Source of the DNA: Chthoniobacteraceae bacterium
GTDB lineage: Bacteria; Verrucomicrobiota; Verrucomicrobiia; Chthoniobacterales; Chthoniobacteraceae
Direction: 5' to 3'
Length of the DNA stretch: 45,351 nt
Assembly: GCA_947476045.1 (NCBI GenBank)
Contig: CANJNZ010000034.1
Location: forward strand, 1 to 45,351
Part shown: positions 7,282 through 27,267 of the stretch, piece by piece
Position numbering within the stretch: position 1 is the first letter of the stretch
How the letters are laid out: each line of letters opens with the position of its first letter
Notes under the pieces: model-generated
Database searches by the model: none
Told to the model about the DNA's origin: nothing
Seen by the model: the letters and a program-made list of their open reading frames with translations, nothing else
Made by a program: the position numbers and the translations under genes

Positions 7282-7820
7282 GCAATACCGCTCTTTGTTT
7301 CAACGAAGCGGGCGTATAGCCAGCAGAGGTCGGAGAGACGGTTGAGGTATTGCAGGATGGCGTCGCTGACGGGCATGGAGCGCTCGCGCAGTTCCCACAT
7401 GGCGCGCTCGGCACGACGACAGATGACGCGCGCTTGATCGAGACACGCGCTGGCTTTGGTAGCTCCCGGGGTTGCCCAGTGTTTGTAGGAAATTTGGTGG
7501 TTGGTTTCCAGATCATGGATAAGCGCGGTGAGGCGCTCGACCATTGCCGGCTCGATAAATTGAAATCCTTTTTCGCGATAGCGTTCGCGATCGTCGGGGG
7601 CGCAGGCGATTTCGCCCATGAGGATGACGAGTTCCTTCTGCACTTCAAAGATGGGCTTTGTGATCAGCGGGTCGTCGTTCCATGCCCGGGCGAGGCCGAG
7701 GGCGGCGTTGAGTTCGTCGCACGCGCCGTTGGCGGCAATGCGGGGATCGGTCTTTGGCACGCGGCGGTTGAACATGATGCCGGTTGTGCCGTTGTCTCCG
7801 GTCTTTGTGGCGATGGACAT
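7278..7820 (-). CDS. Cob(I)yrinic acid a,c-diamide adenosyltransferase, PduO type
   Basis: 180 aa starting at ATG 7820, where the canonical N-terminus (S-I-A-T-K-T-G-D-N-G-T-T-G) begins. It contains A-R-V-I-C-R-R-A-E-R-A (ATP/cobalamin-binding region, about residue 137) and L-N-R-L-S-D-L-C-W-L-Y-A-R near the C-terminus, both PduO-family signatures. The enzyme transfers the adenosyl group of ATP to cob(I)alamin to make coenzyme B12. No other cobalamin genes are adjacent, so it probably serves salvage. It stands downstream of the rpoC terminator and is likely transcribed from its own promoter. Confidence 0.92.
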   Translation of the reverse strand: MSIATKTGDNGTTGIMFNRRVPKTDPRIAANGACDELNAALGLARAWNDDPLITKPIFEVQKELVILMGEIACAPDDRERYREKGFQFIEPAMVERLTALIHDLETNHQISYKHWATPGATKASACLDQARVICRRAERAMWELRERSMPVSDAILQYLNRLSDLCWLYARFVETKSGIA

Positions 7821-7856
7821 GAGTGTTTGTTGCAGGATTGTGGATATGCTGGAAAA

Positions 7857-7893
7857 CAAAAAAGGCCGCCGATTTTCTCGGCGGCCTTTTTGT
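7857..7893 (-). terminator. rpoC terminator (bidirectional shape)
   Basis: A perfect 8-bp stem GGCCGCCG / CGGCGGCC with a 7-nt loop is flanked by an A-run on one side and a T-run on the other. It starts about 15 nt beyond the rpoC stop codon (7905-7907). On the minus strand it ends in T6, a textbook intrinsic terminator. Confidence 0.9.
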
Positions 7894-7904
7894 GATTCGT
7901 AGTG

Positions 7905-10900
7905 CTACGCGATTTCCTCGGCGGGCGCCGTGCTGCCTTCGGGGTCGAGGCTGACGATCTTGAGCTCCTTGTGGGACTTGAATCCTGTTCCAGCCGGGAT
8001 GAGGTGGCCCATGATGACGTTTTCCTTGAAGCCGCGCAGGATGTCGGTGCGTCCGAGCGTCGCTGCGTCGGTGAGGACACGCGTGGTATCCTGGAAGCTG
8101 GCTGCGGAGATGAAGCTCTCGGTTTCGAGCGAGGCCTTGGTGATGCCAAGGAGCACCGGCACGGCTTCGGCGGGCTTGCCGCCTTTTTCCGCAACGCGGT
8201 TGTTCTCCTGCTCGAAGGTGAGCTTGTCCACCTGATCGCCCCACAGCAACGTGGTGTCGCCGGGTTCGGTGACTTTCACTTTGCGGAGCATCTGGCGGAC
8301 GATGATCTCGATGTGCTTGTCGGAAATTTCCACGCCCTGGAGGCGGTAAACTTCCTGCACTTCGTTGACCATGTGCTCCTGGAGAGCGATTGGGCCGAGC
8401 ACGTCGAGGATGTCGTGCGGAGGCACGGGACCTTCGGTGAGTTGCTGGCCTTTTTTCACGTTGTCGCCGGTATAGACGATGATGTTGCGGCCTTGTGGCA
8501 CGAGGTGATCTTCCTCGGCACCTTCTTCGTCGCGGACGATGATCTTGCGCTTGCCGCGAACGAGGCCGCCGATTTCGACGACGCCGTCAATGCGGCTGAT
8601 TTCGCAAGCGTCCTTCGGACGACGGGCTTCAAAGAGCTCGGCAACGCGCGGAAGACCGCCGGTGATGTCCTTGGTTTTGGACATTTTGCGAGGAGTCTTC
8701 GCGAGCAAGGTTCCGGCTGGAATCTTTTTGTTTTCCTGCACGGCCAAGTGAGCGCCGGCCGGGACTGCGTAGCTGGCGATGACCTTCTTGTCCTCGTCTT
8801 CGATGACGATGGAAGGATGGAGATCCTCTTTGTGTTCGATGACGACCATGCCGACGTTGCCGGTGGCTTCGTCGGTTTCCTTCTTCACGGTGACGCCACT
8901 GATCATGTCCTTGAAGATGACCTTGCCGGCCTTCTCGGTGAGAATCGGAACGTTGTATGGATCCCACTCGACGAAGGCATCGCCTTTCTTGACGTGGCCA
9001 CCATCTGGAATGGAGATGACGGAGCCGAGGATGATGTTGTGGCGTTCGAGTTCGCGACCATCCTTGGCGCTAACGGTGATGTAGCCGTTTTTATTCAGCG
9101 CGATCCACTTGTCATCCACACTGTGGACGACACGGAGTTCGTGGAACTTGATGTCACCATCCACCTTGGCCTTGATGATTGGCGTCTTGAACGTCTGCAT
9201 GGCGACGCCACCGACGTGGAAGGTGCGCATGGTGAGCTGCGTGCCGGGTTCGCCGATGGACTGTGCGGCGATGATGCCGACTGCCTCGCCGATCTTGACC
9301 ATCGCGGATGTGGCGTGCTGGCGACCATAGCATTTCGCGCAGATGCCGCGCTTGCTTTCGCAAGTAAGACCGCTGCGGATTTTCATGCTCTCGTGACCGA
9401 TGGCGTCAATGGCGACTGCCGTGGACTCCTCGATGAGCGAGCCCTTCTTGCAGATGGTCTTGCCAGCGACAGGATCTTTGACCGTCTCGCAGCTCACGCG
9501 ACCAATGATACGCGTGGCGAGCGGGACGACTTCTTCGTCGCCGTCGTAGATGGCGCGGACAACGATGCCCTGCGAAGTGCCGCAATCTTCCTCGGTGATG
9601 ATGACATCCTGCGAGGCGTCCACGAGTTTGCGCGTGAGATAGCCGGAGTCGGCGGTCTTGAGCGCGGTGTCGGCGAGACCCTTACGGGCGCCGTGCGTGG
9701 AGATGAAGTATTCGAGCACCGTGAGGCCTTCGCGGAAGTTCGAGGTGATGGGCTGCTCGATGATGGAGCCGTCGGGCTTCGCCATGAGGCCGCGCATACC
9801 GCCGAGCTGGTTGACCTGCGTGCGGTTACCGCGAGCGCCGGAGTCCACCATGAGATACACGGGGTTGATTTCCTTGCGCCCTTCGTTGTGCTGAAGGGTG
9901 CGGAACATGACCTCGGAGATCGCGTTACCGGCCTGTGTCCATGAATCGATGACCTTGTTGTGGCGCTCACCGTCGGTGATGATGCCGCGGCGGAATTGCT
10001 TATCAATTTCCGAGACGGATTTGAACGCCTTGTCGAGGTTGGCGTGTTTCTCCGGCGGAATGATCATGTCCTTGATACCGACGGACACACCGGCGCGCAT
10101 CGCCCACGTGAATCCAAGCTCCTTGAGCTTGTCGAGCATCTCGACGGTCGCCTTTTGTCCGGCGACCTGGTGAGTGCGCGAGATGAGTTCGGAGAGCTGC
10201 TTCTTCGGGCAGGCTTTGTTTATGAAGCCGACGCCGTCGGGCCAGATCTGGTTGAAGATGACGCGACCAACAGTCGTCTCGATGACGTTCTTTTCCGAAT
10301 CGCCATAGACGGTCTTCTTGCCCTTGTCGGGGTTCTTGAAGTGGATGCGGTCATGCACCTTCACCTTGTGCTCTGCCATGGCGAATTCGACCTGGCTGTG
10401 GTCGGCAAACAGCGGGAGGCGCTGGCCTTCACCCTTCGGATTACGCGGCTCCTGCGAGAGGTAGTAGCAGCCAAGCACGATGTCCTGCGACGGTGTGCTG
10501 ATTGGCTTACCGCTCGCGGGCGAGAAGAGGTTGTTCGGCGCAAGCATGAGCAGGCGCGTTTCCAACTGTGCTTCGACGCTGAGCGGGACGTGGACGGCCA
10601 TCTGGTCGCCGTCGAAGTCCGCGTTGTAAGCGGTGCAAGTCAGCGGGTGCAGACGGATAGCCTCGCCCTCGATGAGCTGCGGCTCGAAAGCCTGAATCGA
10701 GAGACGGTGCAGCGTGGGAGCGCGGTTGAGCAGGATCGGGTGGCCTTTGGTCACCTCGTCGAGAATGTCCCACACTTCGGGCGTCTGTTTCTCGATCATC
10801 TTCTTCGCGCTGCGGACGGTGTGGACGTAGCCACGCTCCTTGAGCACGCGAATGATGAACGGCTCGAACAACACGAGCGCCATCTTCTTTGGAAGACCGC

Positions 10901-16802: not shown

Positions 16803-16879
16803 AAAGAAGTGCGCTTTATTCCGCGATAATAATGATGGCGACTACCAAAACGGTGCAGGCTGCGGGCGGGCCGCCTCTA

Positions 16880-19250
16880 TGAGGCGACTTCGTGGAGGTA
16901 GAAGTCGAAGGTGCTGAATGGGAAGGCTCCCATGCCGGGGCCGGTCGGCGCGGCGGCGAAGGATTCTTTGGTGTTCGCTTTGAATGCGTAGGAGACGGTG
17001 CCGATTTTGGCTTTGCCGATTTGCTGGGCGACGATGCCGAAGTGGTCGCCGCTCGCAGGGGTGCCAAGGGCCTGGCCTTTGATGATGAGGCTGGCGATGG
17101 TGGAGATGCGCCCCGGTTCGTCGATGCCGATAGTGACTCTGGTGTCGTCGCCGGTGCCGGCAAAGCCGTCGGTTCCCTTGGTGGTGCTTGCGAGGATGCT
17201 GCTGGCGATCCAAGCACGGCCTACGCTGATTGCGCCGATGCCAGAGTCTGCGTTGTTGTTTTCCCCGATGGTGACATTGATGGTTTCGAAGTTGCCGCCG
17301 ATGGTGAGTTTGCCGATGGCGTTGTCGGGGCCTTTCCCGGCGAGGGGGGATTTGGCGAAAATCTCAACCTCGGTGTCGTTCAAGTCCCCGCCGATGGTAA
17401 TGGCGGCGATGCGGTTGACTGCCTGAATGCGGCCTACGTCGCGGAAGCTGCCACCAATTTTGATGGTGCCGATTCCTGCGGCGCTTTGGATGGTGCTCTT
17501 GGTGACGGAGCCGCCGACAGTGAGGCTGGCGAGGTTACCGGAATCCTGTTGATTGGAAAAGATGTCGGTGCTGCGGATGTCGCTCTTTTCGGTGATTTTG
17601 CCGAGGCCGTGTGCGCCGTTGATTTCGTCGCCTTGCGGCGAGGTGCCGCCGAGGGTGCCGAGGGATTGCACAGTGAGACTGCCGAGGGCGATGCGGGTGG
17701 CGTTGGAATCGCCGACGTCGAGGCTTTGTAGTTCGCCGCCGATGGTCACTTTGCCGAGGTCGGTCTGGTCGGCCTCGATTTCGCCGACGTTGACGAATCC
17801 GTTGCCACCGTTCGGTCCGACCTTTGCGGTGATGGTGACGTCAAATGCTTTTCCGGCAGTCTCGGGGGTGAGGGTGAGCGAACTGAACAGCCCGCCAACG
17901 CCCGCTGTGGTGATGACAAAGTCGCCCATGCTGAAAGTGCCGAGCGAGCGCTTCACGGTGACGAGGTCGCCGTCCACATCGGTGAAGGTGGCGGTCTTGT
18001 TGTCAGTGGAAAGTGTGAGGTTCGGCCCGGTGGCGTTGATCGTCGGCGTGGTGGAGCCGAGTTCGCGGATGGTGAAATCGAACGCGGGATTTTCCGTGCC
18101 CGAACCGGTGAGAGTCGGGGCTGCGAAGAATGCTTCGTGGTTCAACGTCGCACCTTTGTCTGCCTTGAATGCAAACGTGCTCGTGCCGACCTTGGCCTTC
18201 CCGATCTGCTCGGCGACGACGCCGAACATATCGCCCGTGTCGCTCTTGGTTCCGAATGCCTGCCCCTTCACGGTGAAGCTGCCGATGCTGGAGGCGATGT
18301 TCGCGTTGTCGCGCACGCCGCCGGAATACTTCGCATCATCCGCATTGCCGAACACGCTATCGAGCCCTCCGTTCACGCCCGCAGTGGCAGAGCTGGCGAT
18401 CCAGTCGCCGCCGACGGTGATGCTGCCGATGGATGCATCCGCGTTTAGGCTCCCTGCCCCGCCGGCGAGGAAGTTCGCGTTCTCTACGCTGCCTTTGATG
18501 GTGACTGTCTTGATCGCGACGTCGGTGCCTTTCGTCGGCGCGGTCGGCTGACCGAAGGCGGTGATGTTCACCGGATTGAGCCGATCCCGACCCACGATAC
18601 TGCCATCCACTGTGAGTGCGCCGAGCACACCGCCGCGCGCGACGATGCTGACCTCACCGTTCACTCCGCGGATGTCACCGACGATTTTCACCAGCCCGAT
18701 GCTGCCTGCGGCTTCGATGCGATTGGCTCCCACCATCGAACCGCCGATGGTGACGGTGCCGAGCGAGCCCTCGTCGCCGATGTCAATACTGCCGCGCAGG
18801 TCGTTCTTCACCGTGAGCTTCGGCAACGCGCCCTGAGTCTCCACGCCGATGAAGCCCAGACCCGCCCCCGTGAGCGTGCTGTCCCCGAGCAGTCCGATGC
18901 TTTGCACGGCGAGCGATTTCATCGCGGGCACTTTCGCGTCGCCGCCGACCGAGCCGACGGTGACCCGCGCCACATCGCCGGCGATGGTCACATTTCCGAG
19001 ATCCACGCCGACGGCGTCGAGGTAGCCTAGGTTCACGAAGCCATTGCCGCCATCCGCACTGGGCTTCGCGGTGATGGTGATGTTCGCGCCGTTGAAAGTC
19101 GAATCGAGGAAGAGCTTTTGGAACAAGCTCGCGCCATTCGGCCCGCCGGTCTGGTAGCCGGTGAGGTTCGCAGTGGTGAGCGCGCCCTTGCTCGTCATAA
19201 ATGTCACGATGTCTCCGTCCACGTCGCGGAAGGTGATGCTCTTGCCATTC
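16880..19250 (-). repeat. Two tandem ~1.2-kb modules in the surface protein
   Basis: Module 1 runs roughly from 19250 down to 18050, module 2 from 18008 down to 16880. Both start with a T-F-(R/T)-D-V-D-G-D motif, continue through G-G-N-G-F-V-N-(L/V)-G, S-L-(A/T)-V-Q-S-(I/L)-G, repeated G-x-(V/I)-x-(V/I)-G-G-(S/D) strands, then W-I-A-S-S and G-D-x-F-G-(V/I)-V-A-(E/Q)-Q-I-G-K-A-K-(V/I)-G-T, and finish with F-D-F-x-(I/L)-x-E. Divergence at amino-acid level is considerable, so the duplication is old. Confidence 0.75.
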
Positions 19251-19870
19251 GCCGACGGCGTTCCAGCGAGCGGATCGTCCGTCACGATTGCCACGTCGTT
19301 CCCGTCGCCGCCGACGTAGGTGATCGTCGCAGGGGGGCTGAAGCCGGGGATCGTGTCGCCTTCGCCAAGTCCGTCGAAGGTGCCGGTGATCGCGTCCACG
19401 CCGTCATTCTTGATAATGATGAACTCCGTGCCTGCTGGCACAGAGGTTCCGCTGATCGCCTGCAGCGTCGCACCGGCAATGTTCACGGTGCCATTCACGG
19501 CGACCTGATCGTAGCTCGTGCCGGCGACTCCGCCTTCGATGTCCGCGATGAAATACATCGCGCTAGGCAGTGTCACCGTCGCGGTGCCGACATCGAACGT
19601 CGTGATCTGCGTGCCCGCGACGTTGAAGGGATGGCCGAGCGTGAAGCCGTCTGCATCCGCGAAGGAGCTGTCGCCCGTGGCCGTGCCGGAGGTGAAGATG
19701 AGCGTGTCCACGTCGTTCGCGCCGGGGAAGGAAATCGCGCCACCCGTGCCGAGTGTAAGCGTCGGCACCACGATGCTCGCGCCGCCAGTGGCGGTGATGC
19801 TCGCAGCGTGAATCTCCAGCGCCGTCACACTCGCAGGAGTGATCGCCGACACGACGTTGGCTACGTTCGT

Positions 19871-19906
19871 CGCACCGTTCGCACCGTTCGCACCGTTCGC
19901 ACCGAT
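19871..19906. repeat. 9-bp microrepeat (four copies) in surface protein
   Basis: Four direct copies of CGCACCGTT (last one altered in its final two bases) encode a run of A-N-G triplets on the minus strand. A slippage-type repeat within the coding frame; multiples of 9 keep the frame, so copy-number change would alter only loop length. Confidence 0.8.
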
Positions 19907-21356
19907 TTGCAGCGTGGCTGCGGTGATCAGGTCAATCTCCGCATCCGTCACGCCGAAGACGCCCGCCGAGTCCCCGGCACCGATGCGGATTTCCGGCGTC
20001 GCAGTGAGCGGCGCGAGCGTCACCTTTCCGATGCCCGCATTGACCGCGCCGTTGATGGTGATGCCGTCCGCGACTAGCTCCACATCGCCGTTACTCGTGG
20101 TGATGCCGGAGACGGAAAAACTGCTCGAATCCTTGTAGCTCACACCGCCCGTCGTGTTCGCGGATAGCGTGTTGATGTGGTTGATCGCTGCGTTGAGCGT
20201 GAAAGACCCTGCGCCCGCCAGCGTGAGGTTGCTCGTCAGAATATCCGCGCTCGATGTCTGCGTGACTGCGCCCGCCGAGCTGAAAACGATCGTGCCGTTA
20301 TTCGTGGAGACGCCGGTGAGGGTCGCAAAGCTGGCGATTTGAAGAGCACCGGTGTTCGTGAAGGAAAGAGTCGAGCCGTTGTTCGTCACGCGCCCGGCAA
20401 AATCCCCGACGTTGTTCTGGCCCGTCAACGACGCAGTCTGCACGCTATCCACCGCCAGCTTCACCGCCGTGATCGCGCCCGCGCCACTCTGTGTCACCCC
20501 TTGGCCCGTTTTCAGCAAGACGACCGCCGTGCCGAAATTCATCGCCGCATCGTTCAGTATCTGGCCGCTGCTCGCATCGCCGAGCTTGATGAACGGCGCA
20601 CTGAGTTTGCTCACCTCCGCCGCCGTGAGGCTGACGCGGCCGGCGTTTTCCGTGCCGAGAGAAAATTCGCGCCCCGCCGTGGATGCGACGAACGAGATGG
20701 TCTACGTCGCATTGATGCTCGCAAACTGGCCGATATCGAGGTTGTCCGTGGTGAAGGACACGTTCGTCGCGCTGTTGACCGCCTTGTCCACCCTGATCGT
20801 CTCCGCCTTGATGCTCAGTGCGCCATTCACCACGAGCGGTGTCGAGTTGTTGGAGTTACTAATGCGGGCGGAGTCAGTTCCCGCGCCCGTGTCCGCCGTG
20901 AGCGGCTTGGTGAGGCGGTCAATGAAAAGCGAGTCGTTTTGATCCCCGAGATCGAGATCGAACGAGTCGAAGGCGGACAGCGACCCTCGCACGTCGGACT
21001 GACCGCCAAAGGCGTAACTGAAGATACCCTGCGCTCCCAAACCGAGCGTGATGTTTTCGCTGTCGCGAAACAGAAGCTGATTGTCCGTCCCGCCATTCAC
21101 CGATTCGACGAATATCGCGATGCTATTGATCGAACCGGAGTTGGCTGTGTATCGCAGCACGCCGCCCACGATATCGAGCGTGGAAGGAACGATGCGGGTT
21201 TCGAGGATTTCGATGGTGGATGAGCGCGAGGTGGCTTTCATGGCGCGAACGGATAGCGAAAATACGCCGTCATGCGAGCAAAGAAACACGTGCGGTGATA
21301 GTTACCGCCGCACTTCGATTGCGATGGCTGAACTCAGCCTTGGGGAGCTCCCGCGA

Positions 21357-23129
21357 CTACGCCTCCGCCCACTCGACGGGGAGTTTGCGACCGGCCTGGC
21401 CGGCGGAAAAGTGGATGCGGCCCTGTGGGTCGGCTTCGAGGCGGCATTCGATGGCGGGGGCGGCGCCGTCTGCGGACGCCGTCACGCCTTTCACCACGAA
21501 GACTCCGAGCGGACGCGGCACGCTGCCCATCCCGGTCTGGCCCTGCTGGAAGCGGACGCGCGCTTCGGTGCCGCCGTTTTCCTTCGCGCGCCACGGAATT
21601 TTTCCGTGTGCGGGGAGTGGCTGGCGGGGTTGGAATATGATGCCTCCATCGCCGTCTTCGAGCGTGAGCAGGACGGGGCGCAGGAGTTGGCCGCTCGGGT
21701 GGATTTCGAGGGCGACGCCCGATTGCACGCGCATCCCGGTCCATGCTTCGATGGCGGATTCGGCGGCGGCTTTGAAGTCGTCCGCTGCGCCGCTGAGTTG
21801 CGCGCGGCGGAGTGCCTCGATGGCCTGCGAAGTTTTTCCGAGTTGGTGAAGCGACTGCGCGTAGTTCCAGTCGAGACGCTTGGTGTATGAGCCGCCGGTC
21901 ACCGCTGGCTGAATGGTCACTTCGAGCGCGCCAGCGTCGCCAGCGTCGCCGATCATCGCGCAATACTGGAGCAGCGTTTCCTCCGACTTCGGATTGCGCT
22001 CATGCGCCTGCTTTGCGAACTCCAGCGCCTGCGGCATGTCTCCCCGGTCGCGTGCCAGACTGCTCGCGAGCAGCAACGGCATCCACGCGCCGCGTTGCTC
22101 GGCAAATTCCGCGAGCTGCTTCTCCTTCGCCGCATCGGTCTCGCTGCCTTTCAGCTCAAATTTAATCCCGAGCGCGGGCTGGATGTTCGGGTCAATCTCC
22201 AGCGTTTTCGTCAGCGCCGCCATCTCTGCGTCCTTGTCCCCTGCTGCGTTACACGTCTGCGCGAGGTTGAAAAAACCAAACGGATCCTCCGGCTTCAGCT
22301 CCGTGTAGCGCGTGATGTTCTCGCGGCTCTCCACAAATTTCCCCAGCATCCGGTAGCCCGCGCCGAGCGCGATGAGCGTGCGCGGATCCTCCGGCTGGAG
22401 TTCGCGTGCTTTTTCCAAAGCCTCCACGCCCACGTCGGCGATGATCCCGTCGCGCAAAAGCGTCTCGCCGAATTGCACGAGCTGCTCCGGGTGTTTGCTG
22501 AGCGGTTCGATTTGCTGCTGCGCCATCTGCTTGAACTGCTCCACCGGCACCACCACGAGGCTCTTCGGGTCCTTCGGGTCGCGCTGGAGTTTCACCGCCG
22601 CCTTGAGCTGCACGAGCGATTCGAGCGCCACTTGATCGTCCGGGCTCGCCTGCACCGCGCGGATGAACGCCTGCACTGCCTGCTCGCGCTCGCCATTCTC
22701 CGCCAGCATCGTGCCGAGATTGTCCCAGATGAACGGAATCCCCGGCGCCTTCTCCGCCGCCGCCGCATAAAGCCGCACCGCCTCCGGGTCATTGCCGCCC
22801 TGCCGGTTCACGTAGGCCTGGTGAAAAAGCACATACGGCGAGCCGGAATGTTCCGCCTCGATTTTTGTCAGCAGCTCCGTCGCCCGCAAATACTCATGGT
22901 CCTCCAGCGCCTCCGTCATCGCGCCGAAATGCTCCGCCGCCGCCGCAAAGCCGCGCCACGGCCCTACGACACCCTCCTCCGCACAAGCCCGGCACCCGCG
23001 CACCAGCGCATCCATATTAAACTGCTGCGCATCCGGCTGGAGCGCATCCGCCGCCCAAGGCACCCGGTGCGGAAGCCCGAAAAAGTCCAGTTGCCATGCT
23101 TGCGATTCGATCCAGTTGTAAGTGCTCAT
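21357..23129 (-). CDS. TPR protein with C-terminal Hsp70 substrate-binding-like domain
   Basis: 590 aa, cytoplasmic (no signal peptide). Residues ~75-450 hold many tetratricopeptide units, e.g. P-F-I-W-D-N-L-G-T-M-L-A-E-N-G-E-R-E-Q-A and L-Q-P-E-D-P-R-T-L-I-A-L-G-A-G-Y. A C-x-x-C pair sits near residue 46. Residues ~478-585 match the beta part of the Hsp70/DnaK substrate-binding domain in order: a (L/I)-P-x-x-x-x-x-x-(F/W) turn, E-A-R-V-R-F-Q-Q-G-Q in place of V-L-Q-G-E, L-G-V-F-V-V-K-G-V, G-A-A-P-A-I-E-C-R-L, D-P-Q-G-R-I-H-F-S-A. No ATPase domain is present. Probable chaperone-like or scaffold protein; comparable TPR-Hsp70 pairs are known only loosely, so the role is inference. Confidence 0.75.
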   Translation of the reverse strand: MSTYNWIESQAWQLDFFGLPHRVPWAADALQPDAQQFNMDALVRGCRACAEEGVVGPWRGFAAAAEHFGAMTEALEDHEYLRATELLTKIEAEHSGSPYVLFHQAYVNRQGGNDPEAVRLYAAAAEKAPGIPFIWDNLGTMLAENGEREQAVQAFIRAVQASPDDQVALESLVQLKAAVKLQRDPKDPKSLVVVPVEQFKQMAQQQIEPLSKHPEQLVQFGETLLRDGIIADVGVEALEKARELQPEDPRTLIALGAGYRMLGKFVESRENITRYTELKPEDPFGFFNLAQTCNAAGDKDAEMAALTKTLEIDPNIQPALGIKFELKGSETDAAKEKQLAEFAEQRGAWMPLLLASSLARDRGDMPQALEFAKQAHERNPKSEETLLQYCAMIGDAGDAGALEVTIQPAVTGGSYTKRLDWNYAQSLHQLGKTSQAIEALRRAQLSGAADDFKAAAESAIEAWTGMRVQSGVALEIHPSGQLLRPVLLTLEDGDGGIIFQPRQPLPAHGKIPWRAKENGGTEARVRFQQGQTGMGSVPRPLGVFVVKGVTASADGAAPAIECRLEADPQGRIHFSAGQAGRKLPVEWAEA

Positions 23130-23667: not shown

Positions 23668-23883
23668 GCGCGCAATGCGGCCTAACTAGTGGATCACAAA
23701 CAGAAGTGTTGTGTTGGTGAAGGCCTTTATGGGTGTCGGTTCTGTAGGAACATTACGGGGTGGGAAGTGCATGGGCGTGGGTTTTTGCGCAATTGGCGGG
23801 AGCGGGCAATGTAATAGTAGTCTATCGAAGCTGGCGGCTTTGCCGTTGCCCAATCTGCCAAGCGCGTGTTTCTTCGCGGGCCG

Positions 23884-26800
23884 ATGAAAGCTCTATCGTT
23901 CCTCGCATTTTGCACCACTGCGCTCGCGCCGCTGTTTGCGGATGAATCACTCGATGCGGGGCTGATGCGGATGCCTGCGGTTTCCGGGAAGCACATCGCG
24001 TTTGCCTACGCGGGCGACATCTGGCTCGCGCCGAAGGACGGGGGGACGGCGTTGCGGCTGAGTTCGCCGCGCGGCGAGGAAAGCTGGCCGCGTTTTTCAC
24101 CGGATGGCCGCGAGATTGCGTTCACGGGAAACTACGAGGGTAATGAGGACATTTACGTGATGCCCGTCTCCGGCGGCGAGCCACGGCGCGTGACTTTTCA
24201 CGGCGCGTCGGACCGCATGGTGGGCTGGTGGCCGGACGGGAAGAGCATCGTCTTCGCATCGAAGCGGGAGAGTTTCACCGAGCGGGTCGGGCAGTTTTTT
24301 AAAATCAACACGCAGGGCGGTGTGGCGGAGCGGCTGGCGATTCCCTACGGCGAGTTCGGCGCGATTTCGCCGGACGGCAGAACGTTTGCCTACGTGATGA
24401 CGAACACCGACGGCGCATCGTGGAAACGCTATCGCGGCGGACTCGCGCCGGATGTGTGGCTCTTTCACCTCGACACGGGCGCGGCGGAAAATGTGACGAA
24501 CAACGATGCGTGCGATTCGCAGCCGATGTGGGCGGGTGACACGAAGCTCTATTTCCTGAGCGACCGAGACGAGCGGAAGCGCGCGAACCTCTGGTGCTAC
24601 GACACCGCTGCGAAATCGCTGCGGCAGGTGACGCATTTCACCGAATACGATGTGCGCAACCCGAGCATCGGGCCGAAGGAAATCGTGTTTGAAAACGGGG
24701 GCCGCCTCGTGCTGCTCGACCTGGCGACGGAGCAGACGCGCGAGGTGAAGGTGGACGTAATCACGGACAAGGCGACGTTGCGTCCGCGTGTGGAAAATGC
24801 GGGCGGCTTGATCAAGAACGGCGCGATTTCGCCGAGCGGGAAGCGGGTGATCTTCGAGGCGCGCAGCGACATTTTTTCCGTGCCCGCCGAGAACGGCATC
24901 GTGCGCAATCTCACCGAAACACCCGGCATCGCCGAGCGCTATCCCGCGTGGTCGCCCGATGGAAAATGGATCGCGTATTTTTCAGACCGCAGCGGCGAGT
25001 ATGAACTGACGCTCCGTCCCGCCGACGGCAAGGGCGAGGAGAAGCAGGTCACGACGCTCGGCCCCGGCTGGCGCTACCAGCCGCATTGGTCGCCGGACAG
25101 CCGCAAGCTCGTGTTCATAGACAGCGCGATGAAAATCTGGCTGCACGATCTCGACACGCAGCAGACGGAGCAAATTGACAAACAACTGTGGATGTATCAC
25201 GGCCAGCTCGATGCTTTCAAAGTGAACTGGAGCAGCGACAGCCGCTGGCTCGCCTACGCAGGCGACACGGACAGCCAGCTCAACGCCATCGTGATTTACG
25301 ATGTGAAGGCGCGCAAAAGGCATCAGGTGACGAGCGCGTATTACGATGACGACGAGCCGGTGTTCGACCCGGCGGGGAACTATCTTTTTTACCGCAGCAA
25401 ACGGAATTTCAACGCGCTCTACAGCGACTTCGACAACACGTGGGCCTACGTGAACAGCCACGCGCTCGTCTGCGTGCCGCTGCGCAAGGACATCGCGTCG
25501 CCGCTCGCGCCGAGGAATGACGAGGAGCCGTTCAAAAAGGACGAGCCGAAGAAGGAGGAAAAGAAGGACGACAAACCGAAGTCGAACGAGCCGGAGAAAA
25601 AACCGGAGGACTCGAAGAAGGGCGACAAGCCAGCCGAGGCGTCCATCAAACCCGCCGAGCCGAAGCCCGCCGACAAAAAGCCGGAGGATAAAAAAGGCGA
25701 CGCCGACAAACCCGCCGACGTTCCGCATCCGAAGGAAGTGAAGATCGATCTCGACGGCTTCGAGGGGCGCGCCGTCGTCCTGCCCGTGGGCAGCGGGCGG
25801 CTGGATCAAATCAGCGCCCTGCCCGGCAAGGTCGTCTTCCGCTGGCCGCCGCGCACCGGCGCATCCGGCGGCAACGCACCGCTCAGCTACTACGACATCG
25901 AAGCGCGCGCCGAAAAGGCGATGCTCGACAGTGCGGGCAGCTACGAGATTTCCGCCGATGGAAAAAAGATGCTCGTCGCACGCGGCGACCAGTGGTTCGT
26001 CGCCAACGCCGCCGAGGGCGCGAAGACGGACAAGGCGCTGAGCACTTCGCTCGAACTCACCGTGGACCCGGTTGTCGAGTGGCGGCAGATGTTCAACGAC
26101 GCATGGCGCATCGAGCGCGATTTTTTCTACGACCCGCATCTCCACATCGTCGCATGGCAGCAGATGCGCGAACGCTACGGCAAAATGCTCGCCGGTTGCG
26201 CCACACGCCACGACGTGAACTACATTCTCGGAGAATTGCTCGGAGAACTAAACAGCTCGCACACTTACCGCAGCGGCGGCGAACTCGAACAGGGCGCGCA
26301 CCGCAGCGTCGGCTACCTCGGTTGCAACTTCGCACTGGAGCAGGGAGCATTTCGCATCAAGCACATCCTCGATGTCGCGCCGTGGGACACGAACGTGCGC
26401 GCCCCGCTCCGCACACCCGGCCTCGCCGTGAAGGAAGGCGAATGGCTGCTCGCCGTGAACGGCCGCAAGCTCGACCCCGCACAGGAACCCTACGCCGCAT
26501 TCCAGGGCCTCGCCGACAAGGCGGTGATGCTCACTTTGAACGACAAGCCCACGCTCGAAGGTGCGCGCGAAATCCTCGTGCAAACCATCGGCAGCGAGAG
26601 CGCGCTCCGTCACAGCGCGTGGATCGAAAACAACCGCCGCATCGTGGACGAAGCCACGCAGGGCCGCGCGGGCTACATTTACGTCCGCAGCACGGCGATT
26701 GACGGGCAGACGGAACTTTACCGCCAGTGGCGTGCGCAAACGCACAAGGACGCGCTCGTCATTGACGAACGCTGGAACAGCGGCGGCCAGATTCCAGACC

Positions 26801-27267
26801 GTTTCATCGAGTTGCTCAACCGCCCCGTCACGAATCATTGGGGCGTGCGCGACGGCAGGGATTGGACGACGCCATTCGTCCCCACCACGCAGGCAAAAGT
26901 GATGCTCGCCAACCGCTGGAGCGGCTCCGGCGGCGATTGTTTTCCGTGGCTCTTCCAGCAGAAAAAACTCGGCCCCGTCATCGGCACGCGCACATGGGGC
27001 GGACTCATCGGCATGACCGGATGCCCCAAACTCGTGGACGGCGGCAGCGTCACCGTCCCCACATTCAGCATCTACGACAACTCCGGCAAATGGATCATCG
27101 AAGGCCGCGGCGTTGAACCCGACATCGCCGTGATGGACGATCCCGCCGTGCTTGCCAAAGGCACCGACCCGCAACTCCAACGCGCCATCGCCGAAATCAA
27201 AACCATGCTGGAGAAAAATCCGTCCGTCCGTCCGCCCAAACCCAACTACACCGACCGGACGCGCTGA
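23884..27267 (+). CDS. Tricorn-type S41 peptidase, exported
   Basis: 1127 aa from ATG 23884, where a signal peptide (MKALSFLAFCTTALAPLFA) begins; the upstream ATG at 23866 would spoil it. Residues ~30-540 are WD40/TolB-like propeller repeats (F-S-P-D-G-R-E-I-A-F-T-G and similar), the two tricorn propellers. A 70-residue Lys/Glu/Pro-rich linker follows (~550-620). The C-terminal half carries the tricorn PDZ and S41 core: N-S-S792-H793-T equals the Ser-His pair, V-I-D-E-R-W-N-S-G-G, the nucleophile segment W-S-G-S-G-G-D (1012-1018) and E1078 in G-R-G-V-E-P-D. All catalytic elements look intact. Probable large periplasmic peptide-degrading protease. Ends in TGA, convergent with the metallopeptidase gene. 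Confidence 0.92.
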   Translation: MKALSFLAFCTTALAPLFADESLDAGLMRMPAVSGKHIAFAYAGDIWLAPKDGGTALRLSSPRGEESWPRFSPDGREIAFTGNYEGNEDIYVMPVSGGEPRRVTFHGASDRMVGWWPDGKSIVFASKRESFTERVGQFFKINTQGGVAERLAIPYGEFGAISPDGRTFAYVMTNTDGASWKRYRGGLAPDVWLFHLDTGAAENVTNNDACDSQPMWAGDTKLYFLSDRDERKRANLWCYDTAAKSLRQVTHFTEYDVRNPSIGPKEIVFENGGRLVLLDLATEQTREVKVDVITDKATLRPRVENAGGLIKNGAISPSGKRVIFEARSDIFSVPAENGIVRNLTETPGIAERYPAWSPDGKWIAYFSDRSGEYELTLRPADGKGEEKQVTTLGPGWRYQPHWSPDSRKLVFIDSAMKIWLHDLDTQQTEQIDKQLWMYHGQLDAFKVNWSSDSRWLAYAGDTDSQLNAIVIYDVKARKRHQVTSAYYDDDEPVFDPAGNYLFYRSKRNFNALYSDFDNTWAYVNSHALVCVPLRKDIASPLAPRNDEEPFKKDEPKKEEKKDDKPKSNEPEKKPEDSKKGDKPAEASIKPAEPKPADKKPEDKKGDADKPADVPHPKEVKIDLDGFEGRAVVLPVGSGRLDQISALPGKVVFRWPPRTGASGGNAPLSYYDIEARAEKAMLDSAGSYEISADGKKMLVARGDQWFVANAAEGAKTDKALSTSLELTVDPVVEWRQMFNDAWRIERDFFYDPHLHIVAWQQMRERYGKMLAGCATRHDVNYILGELLGELNSSHTYRSGGELEQGAHRSVGYLGCNFALEQGAFRIKHILDVAPWDTNVRAPLRTPGLAVKEGEWLLAVNGRKLDPAQEPYAAFQGLADKAVMLTLNDKPTLEGAREILVQTIGSESALRHSAWIENNRRIVDEATQGRAGYIYVRSTAIDGQTELYRQWRAQTHKDALVIDERWNSGGQIPDRFIELLNRPVTNHWGVRDGRDWTTPFVPTTQAKVMLANRWSGSGGDCFPWLFQQKKLGPVIGTRTWGGLIGMTGCPKLVDGGSVTVPTFSIYDNSGKWIIEGRGVEPDIAVMDDPAVLAKGTDPQLQRAIAEIKTMLEKNPSVRPPKPNYTDRTR

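Follow-up and report, generated by a model that had tools for sequence, protein, structure and literature searches.

Within the window analysed here, that is, the whole stretch of 45,351 nucleotides from a bacterium of the family Chthoniobacteraceae, one gene encodes a TPR protein that carries a captured substrate-binding beta domain (SBD-beta) of the Hsp70 type, and which is not itself a member of the Hsp70s, since the nucleotide-binding domain (NBD), the interdomain linker and the lid are all absent. The SBD-beta of an Hsp70 is normally one half of an ATP-driven machine, and its presence as an orphan on a TPR scaffold constitutes a real, lineage-restricted domain combination. Among the papers listed by literature searches, judged by titles and the beginnings of abstracts, none describes a bacterial TPR-SBD fusion or an Hsp70 SBD devoid of its NBD.

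A conserved, ATPase-free SBD-beta on a TPR scaffold would be a natural experiment on what this domain is capable of by itself, and could become a guide to the design of ATP-independent client binders. As the curated thresholds of Pfam and NCBIfam fail to pick up the domain in the window protein, further captures of this kind may have gone unnoticed.

Architecture of the protein

Table 1. Positions of the gene, of its parts and of two diverged paralogues from two genomes of the window's genus (coordinates of the first five rows are those of the window).
Feature	Coordinates	Strand	Remarks and basis
Whole ORF	21357..23129	-	590 aa + stop, ATG start; order N-terminal segment, TPR solenoid, Hsp70 SBD-beta
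Residues 1-26, conserved N-terminal segment	23052..23129	-	Alignments; model strands 4-8 and 22-26
Residues 39-463, TPR-like helical solenoid	21741..23015	-	Pfam TPR models, AF2 full-length model, Foldseek
Residues 464-590, Hsp70 substrate-binding beta domain (predicted fold)	21360..21740	-	Eight main strands, no lid after; profile, hhalign, fold
Residues 527-531, FQQGQ (family LQQGQ/E)	21537..21551	-	Equivalent to VLQGE of DnaK 440-444; hhalign alignment
L035	4637-6484	+	Whole diverged paralogue
L044	4755-5660	-	Diverged paralogue cut by contig end

The reading frame is the one that the preliminary description had placed here, from ATG to stop, and the order of its three parts is also found in the aligned homologues from related genomes. 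In the N-terminal segment, W6, W12, F16, P20, P24 and W25 are invariant across the 21 rows of the family alignment (A2). The long TPR array that had been proposed is confirmed by Pfam, in which TPR_14 is the best model (E = 1.3e-16) and, together with TPR_2, TPR_1, TPR_8 and others, passes the cut-offs; in the full-length AF2 model (pLDDT 90.0, pTM 0.73) the solenoid has 24 predicted helices in about 12 hairpins, with strands at residues 178-182 and 191-195, and is followed after residue 463 by a beta domain that continues to the end of the chain. The solenoid matches OGT and other TPR proteins in Foldseek, Tom71 and P58IPK included.

Equally well founded was the claim that no ATPase domain accompanies the substrate-binding part, because the Pfam HSP70 model (PF00012) touches only residues 521-579, with its profile positions 429-486, and Pfam detects no actin-like nucleotide-binding domain within the 590 residues. 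In the AF2 full-length model there is no helix of at least 4 residues after residue 463 that could represent a lid, the protein stopping at its last strand, and no linker resembling VLLLD is found ahead of the domain in the aligned members. Since visual inspection of the sequence reveals no signal peptide, the protein is probably cytoplasmic.

Homology of the C-terminal domain

The preliminary description had recognized the motif order of the DnaK SBD-beta at residues ~478-585; the homology is real, although the boundaries have to be drawn a little wider, at about 464-590. With the window protein alone, the Pfam HSP70 model gives E = 0.099 over the full length and E = 0.0075 for the last 126 residues, the C-terminal part reaching 15 bits, under the gathering cut-off of 20.6, and no Hsp70 model occurs among the 21 NCBIfam rows obtained for the protein at E = 1. 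The Hsp70-like stretch is thus real yet too weak to be called from the window's sequence alone, and, a single-sequence match being only a hint, homologues were gathered from related genomes and a profile of the C-terminal domain (A1) was built from 21 proteins, the window's included, one row of which is the diverged paralogue L035. Eight of these 21 family members match Pfam HSP70 at E = 1 or better, the best at 0.0013.

Against the PDB, the A1 profile finds DnaK chains at E = 1.3e-6 and 67 distinct sequences at E up to 10, and all 60 of those 67 that were listed belong to the Hsp70 family; among them, 5tky, titled as a putative uncharacterized protein, is Ssb going by the Foldseek listing, and 31gn, titled as an import motor subunit, is presumably a mitochondrial Hsp70. 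The comparison with an Hsp70 profile that the preliminary description had called for, for which hhalign was used with 30 verrucomicrobial DnaK SBDs, yields a probability of 95.6% and an E of 1.2e-8, a value that refers to one single comparison and not to a database search. As a control, A1 matched 33 of 34 Hsp70 ORFs, with up to 32.7 bits, bearing in mind that 31 of them had been fetched by this same profile and that 3 were chosen independently through PF00012; these three independent Hsp70s are all encoded in the genome of the window, and their scores are 21.4 (DnaK), 11.5 and 8.1 bits. With the profile reversed there is no match, and 20 column-shuffled profiles do not exceed 5.7 bits, with any match at all in 4 of the 20.

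The fold points in the same direction. The AF2 model of the domain alone (pLDDT 89.9, pTM 0.82) has a best Foldseek match at E = 3.1e-6, and 48 of the 50 listed rows are titled as Hsp70 family members; the other two are ciliary central-pair entries, which we take to be Hsp70 chains. With VIA-align, the 50 listed rows range from Z 13.5 to 9.0, with an rmsd of 2.0 to 3.6 A over 101 to 111 residues, and they are Hsp70, Hsp110 or Ssz1, one ciliary title apart, with DnaK and BiP matched at Z 13; model residues 17-126 lie on 393-501 of 1q5l, with 106 aligned. Structure prediction followed by structural search had been proposed as a check, and the idea was to be given up if no Hsp70 fold were matched or if another beta domain matched better; the outcome was a match to the Hsp70 beta-sandwich in both searches, and the idea was not refuted. 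The predicted fold of the window protein includes an SBD-beta sandwich.

That some other beta domain should have come to resemble the Hsp70 motifs by chance is strongly disfavoured and, in our estimation, hardly credible. It could draw on the position of the window protein below the curated Pfam threshold, on the fact that no more than 8 of the 21 members match HSP70, and on a narrow profile, made from 12 DnaK SBDs, which at E = 1 recovers the gene in none of the 40 genomes of the family; furthermore, with the domain as query in the window's genome, DnaK appears at E = 0.052, behind a noise match at E = 0.038 that is the best non-self one. However, searches by profile, by profile-profile comparison and by fold all lead to Hsp70, the shuffled profiles stay low, and no other fold appears among the listed structure matches. 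We attribute the failure of the narrow profile, the weak match to DnaK in the same genome and the Pfam-negative paralogues to divergence, since identity to DnaK is about 17% in the fold alignments.

Distribution, paralogues and selection

At E = 2.4e-40 or better, the gene is found in 27 of 40 Chthoniobacteraceae genomes, many of them being themselves sources of the profile. In the window's own genus it occurs in 9 of 10 genomes, four other genera have it in 4 of 4, 9 of 12, 4 of 5 and 1 of 1, and none of the 8 genomes in the last four genera has it. In a set of 27 contigs that carry the gene, two hold just a part of it. The genome sets for order, class and phylum overlap. No comparable match was obtained in 173 genomes from the rest of the order, in 10 of which there are weak matches only, at E 6.7e-7 to 9.5e-5 and in frames 358 to 723 aa long; in the class, none of 368 genomes reaches 1e-9, and in the phylum none of 287 is better than 1.7e-7. 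From the phylum survey, 29 loci (L055-L083) out of 72 were inspected, and all of them are Hsp70s, 27 in a single frame; the 43 others and the 10 weak matches of the order are, on the strength of score and frame length, taken as DnaKs. Three candidates for further NBD-less SBD genes were discarded: L058 and L078 are DnaKs, either broken or cut, and the one in G007 (C131) is a short frame at a contig end. A plasmid search gave six records, none of which reaches 60% identity or covers 80% of the query; the five listed match the TPR part only.

Two genomes of the window's genus contain a second, strongly diverged TPR-SBD subfamily (L035 and L044, Table 1), whose two members share 27% identity over about 300 aa and have no match to Pfam HSP70 at E = 1. 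In another genome, G024, the homologue L030 (C59, 81380-83117) comes up as two separate matches, one for residues 3-129 and one for 133-588, in different frames, which is either a pseudogene or an assembly error.

In comparisons with four relatives, dN/dS is 0.06 to 0.31 for the entire gene and 0.04, 0.08, 0.21 and 0.39 for the SBD part, the values of the two most distant pairs being rough for the latter (dS 0.70 to 1.48). These ratios indicate that the SBD-beta domain is under purifying selection.

Residues kept and lost with respect to DnaK

The residues were tabulated for 25 members, setting aside the paralogue L035 and the frame-broken L030. The equivalents of Pro419, Gln442, Gly443, Leu454, Gly455, Phe457, Gly482 and Ala488 of DnaK are kept, with L, I or V at Leu484, and within the FQQGQ motif Q529 and G530 are present in all 25. 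As to the base of the peptide pocket, for which an excerpt of PMC4110032 names positions 401, 426, 436, 438, 472 and 474 of DnaK, Ile401 is replaced by L, I or V, Val436 by A, T or V (T in 7), Ile438 by V or I, Ile472 by I, V or L, and Val474 by C, in each case in 25 of 25, and Phe426 by W in 23 of 25. Judging from the alignment, these six positions mostly remain apolar or small; nevertheless, they constitute weak evidence for a pocket, because any beta sandwich needs an apolar interior.

The hydrophobic arch is lost. The position of Met404 is occupied by E or D in 16 of 25 members and by P in 5 (E491 in the window protein), and that of Ala429 by K in 7, N in 4 and an apolar residue (I, F, A, V) in 7 (K516 in the window protein). 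The register for 401 and 404 presupposes that no gap separates beta1 from beta2, the hhalign alignment beginning only at the equivalent of 411; it is a gapless extension and not a set of superposed coordinates, and the VIA-align ranges agree with it. In the surroundings of the linker and of the contact with the ATPase, Asp393 is replaced by G, S or T and Lys414 by A or P, both in 25 of 25, and the position of Asp481 has D in 17 of 25 and Q in the window protein, while it is N in 29 of 30 verrucomicrobial DnaKs. Lys414 and Asp481 form part of the clamp on the NBD in DnaK, according to an excerpt of PMC4611139.

Proposed mechanism and alternative explanations

The reading that we favour, with a probability of roughly 0.4, is that of a TPR scaffold whose SBD-beta groove would weakly hold hydrophobic segments in a nucleotide-free manner and whose TPRs would select the partner. 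The beta half of an SBD of the DnaK type would have been captured by a TPR protein in the Chthoniobacteraceae, leaving behind the ATPase, the interdomain linker and the lid; in the resulting groove, with its apolar base retained and its arch and lid gone, extended hydrophobic segments would be held weakly and exchanged fast, without control by nucleotide, and the TPR solenoid, on binding its own partner, would thereby determine which protein is presented. The proposal of weak, nucleotide-free holding is made by analogy with Ssz1, the closest case to have been worked out, which, in the excerpted text of PMC7083937, has no lid and does not hydrolyze ATP, its rudimentary SBD being a low-affinity binder of nascent chains; the same excerpt gives a reduced affinity and an exchange 10-100 times faster for DnaK without its lid. 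The holdase action put forward in the preliminary description would thus be a possible chaperone activity by analogy, and peptide binding, given the pocket residues, the loss of the arch and the missing lid, a putative property.

One extension of this reading concerns the proline-rich and strongly conserved N-terminus (LPxRIPW), which might be a built-in pseudo-substrate lodged in the orphan SBD-beta and displaced once the TPR solenoid engages a client, in the way that the proline-rich LP-motif of Zuo1 sits in Ssz1 as a pseudo-substrate in the excerpt of PMC7083937. We regard this as a speculation with a small chance of being right; if it were true, the capture of clients of the Hsp70 type would be switched by protein binding and not by ATP.

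Almost as likely as weak holding is a domain with a structural or otherwise re-purposed role. Here, the SBD-beta would be a relic that caps or stabilizes the C-terminal end of the solenoid, or that provides a fixed contact with a partner, its peptide binding having gone. Such a fate is in keeping with the loss of arch, linker and lid, with turn and core residues (D494, G495, G496, P506, Q528, Q529, G530 and W587) that are as conserved as the pocket positions, and with the far greater divergence of L035 and L044 in precisely this domain, yet a pocket base that is still apolar or small, with Trp at the position of Phe426 in nearly all members, speaks against it. It is improbable, on the other hand, that the protein acts in trans as a co-chaperone, its SBD-beta docking on the ATPase domain of the DnaK in the same cell. 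The window's genome does encode DnaK and two further Hsp70s, and the best superpositions of the model are on SBD-beta in the ATP state or an ATP-like one (the first 12 rows have Z 12 to 13.5, most others 9 to 10.6), a gain that is in part due to NBD residues, since the aligned chain range starts inside the NBD; but the VLLLD linker is absent, the substitutions of Asp393 and of the clamp residue Lys414 are universal in the table, and the position of Asp481, at which most members have D, is itself N in 29 of the 30 verrucomicrobial DnaKs. Nor does a DnaK partner appear next to the gene. There is no Hsp70 gene on the window's contig, none was seen by eye among the recurring neighbours in 27 oriented loci, and in the 27 genomes no DnaK-SBD match lies on the gene's contig, with the proviso that many of these contigs are short and that the profile misses diverged Hsp70s such as that of contig C20; of the suggested survey, then, the homologues materialized and the neighbouring ATPase did not.

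The genomic context suggests a further possibility, namely a dedicated assembly or regulatory factor for enzymes of the aspartate family of amino acids (homoserine dehydrogenase, threonine synthase, aspartokinase), with the SBD holding a segment of one of them, which we consider unlikely. In the 27 oriented loci, the window's included, the neighbours vary between genera; thrC lies just upstream in 8, with gaps to the gene of about 11 to 305 bases, as calculated from start positions of which one is 3 bases off, hom precedes thrC in 5 of those 8, and 5 of the 27 have lysC after the gene, to which can be added two further genomes, G024 and G031, with lysC directly after the gene's end. Some contigs end before such neighbours could appear. 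In one neighbour set, Pfam identifies a homoserine dehydrogenase, a PLP enzyme, which we take to be threonine synthase, and an amino-acid kinase with ACT. Against a dedicated role, thrC and lysC are on other contigs in the window's genome, and other loci have different neighbours instead, namely an ECF sigma gene upstream in 4 of 27 or, downstream in 6 of 27, a gene for a GDSL hydrolase. Moreover, the genome G012, which lacks the gene, retains hom, thrC and lysC on one contig, so that the gene may simply have landed in this cluster, and, the linkage not being general, an arrangement hom-thrC-X-lysC is kept only as a rival to the weak-holding scaffold.

In G012 (locus L140, contig C267), opposite-strand ORFs lie between thrC and lysC, the interval being the site of the TPR-SBD gene in some other genera, and no diverged copy was found there. 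A 10.2-bit match in the same genome, lying in a short frame where the contig ends, was rejected and read as chance, because it covers 27 residues and has no Pfam match.

Comparison with known systems and neighbouring genes

With the SBD-beta of DnaK and other Hsp70s (the C-terminal part of PF00012), the domain shares the fold, at Z 9 to 13.5, and the order of motifs; it differs in the lack of NBD, VLLLD linker and lid, in the loss of the arch and of Lys414, and in the change of Phe426 to Trp. TPR co-chaperones of Hsp70 of the Tom71, P58IPK and Hop type resemble it in the solenoid, but are not known to have an SBD-beta of their own. The EEVD tail has a role with such co-chaperones, and the DnaK of the window's genome ends in a lysine tail, not in EEVD. 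Ssz1, of the ribosome-associated complex, also has a lidless SBD-beta, and its structure 6sr6 is among the fold matches (Z 9.6); nevertheless, as the excerpt of PMC7083937 has it, Ssz1 retains an ATP-binding NBD that is completed by Zuo1, whereas the window protein has no NBD and its companion is the TPR array in the same chain.

A lidless SBD-beta is also present in the Hsp70 of contig C20 in the window's genome (G000), which, unlike the window protein, keeps its NBD, and which scores 8.1 bits with the family profile against 21.4 for the DnaK of that genome. This Hsp70 (locus L040, 6036-7610, 524 aa) is followed, after 23 bases, by a frame at 7634-9364 whose product of 576 aa has an FGE-sulfatase (formylglycine-enzyme-like) domain, which makes an odd pair.

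In the window itself, positions 16877-21289 of the reverse strand contain ORFs of 1245 and 195 aa in one reading frame with a stop between them, neither with a Pfam match at E = 0.01, and which would be either two genes lying side by side or a single large surface protein that the stop interrupts. On the forward strand, at 23866-27267, there is an ORF of 1133 aa, which presumably encodes a protease of the tricorn type (S41).
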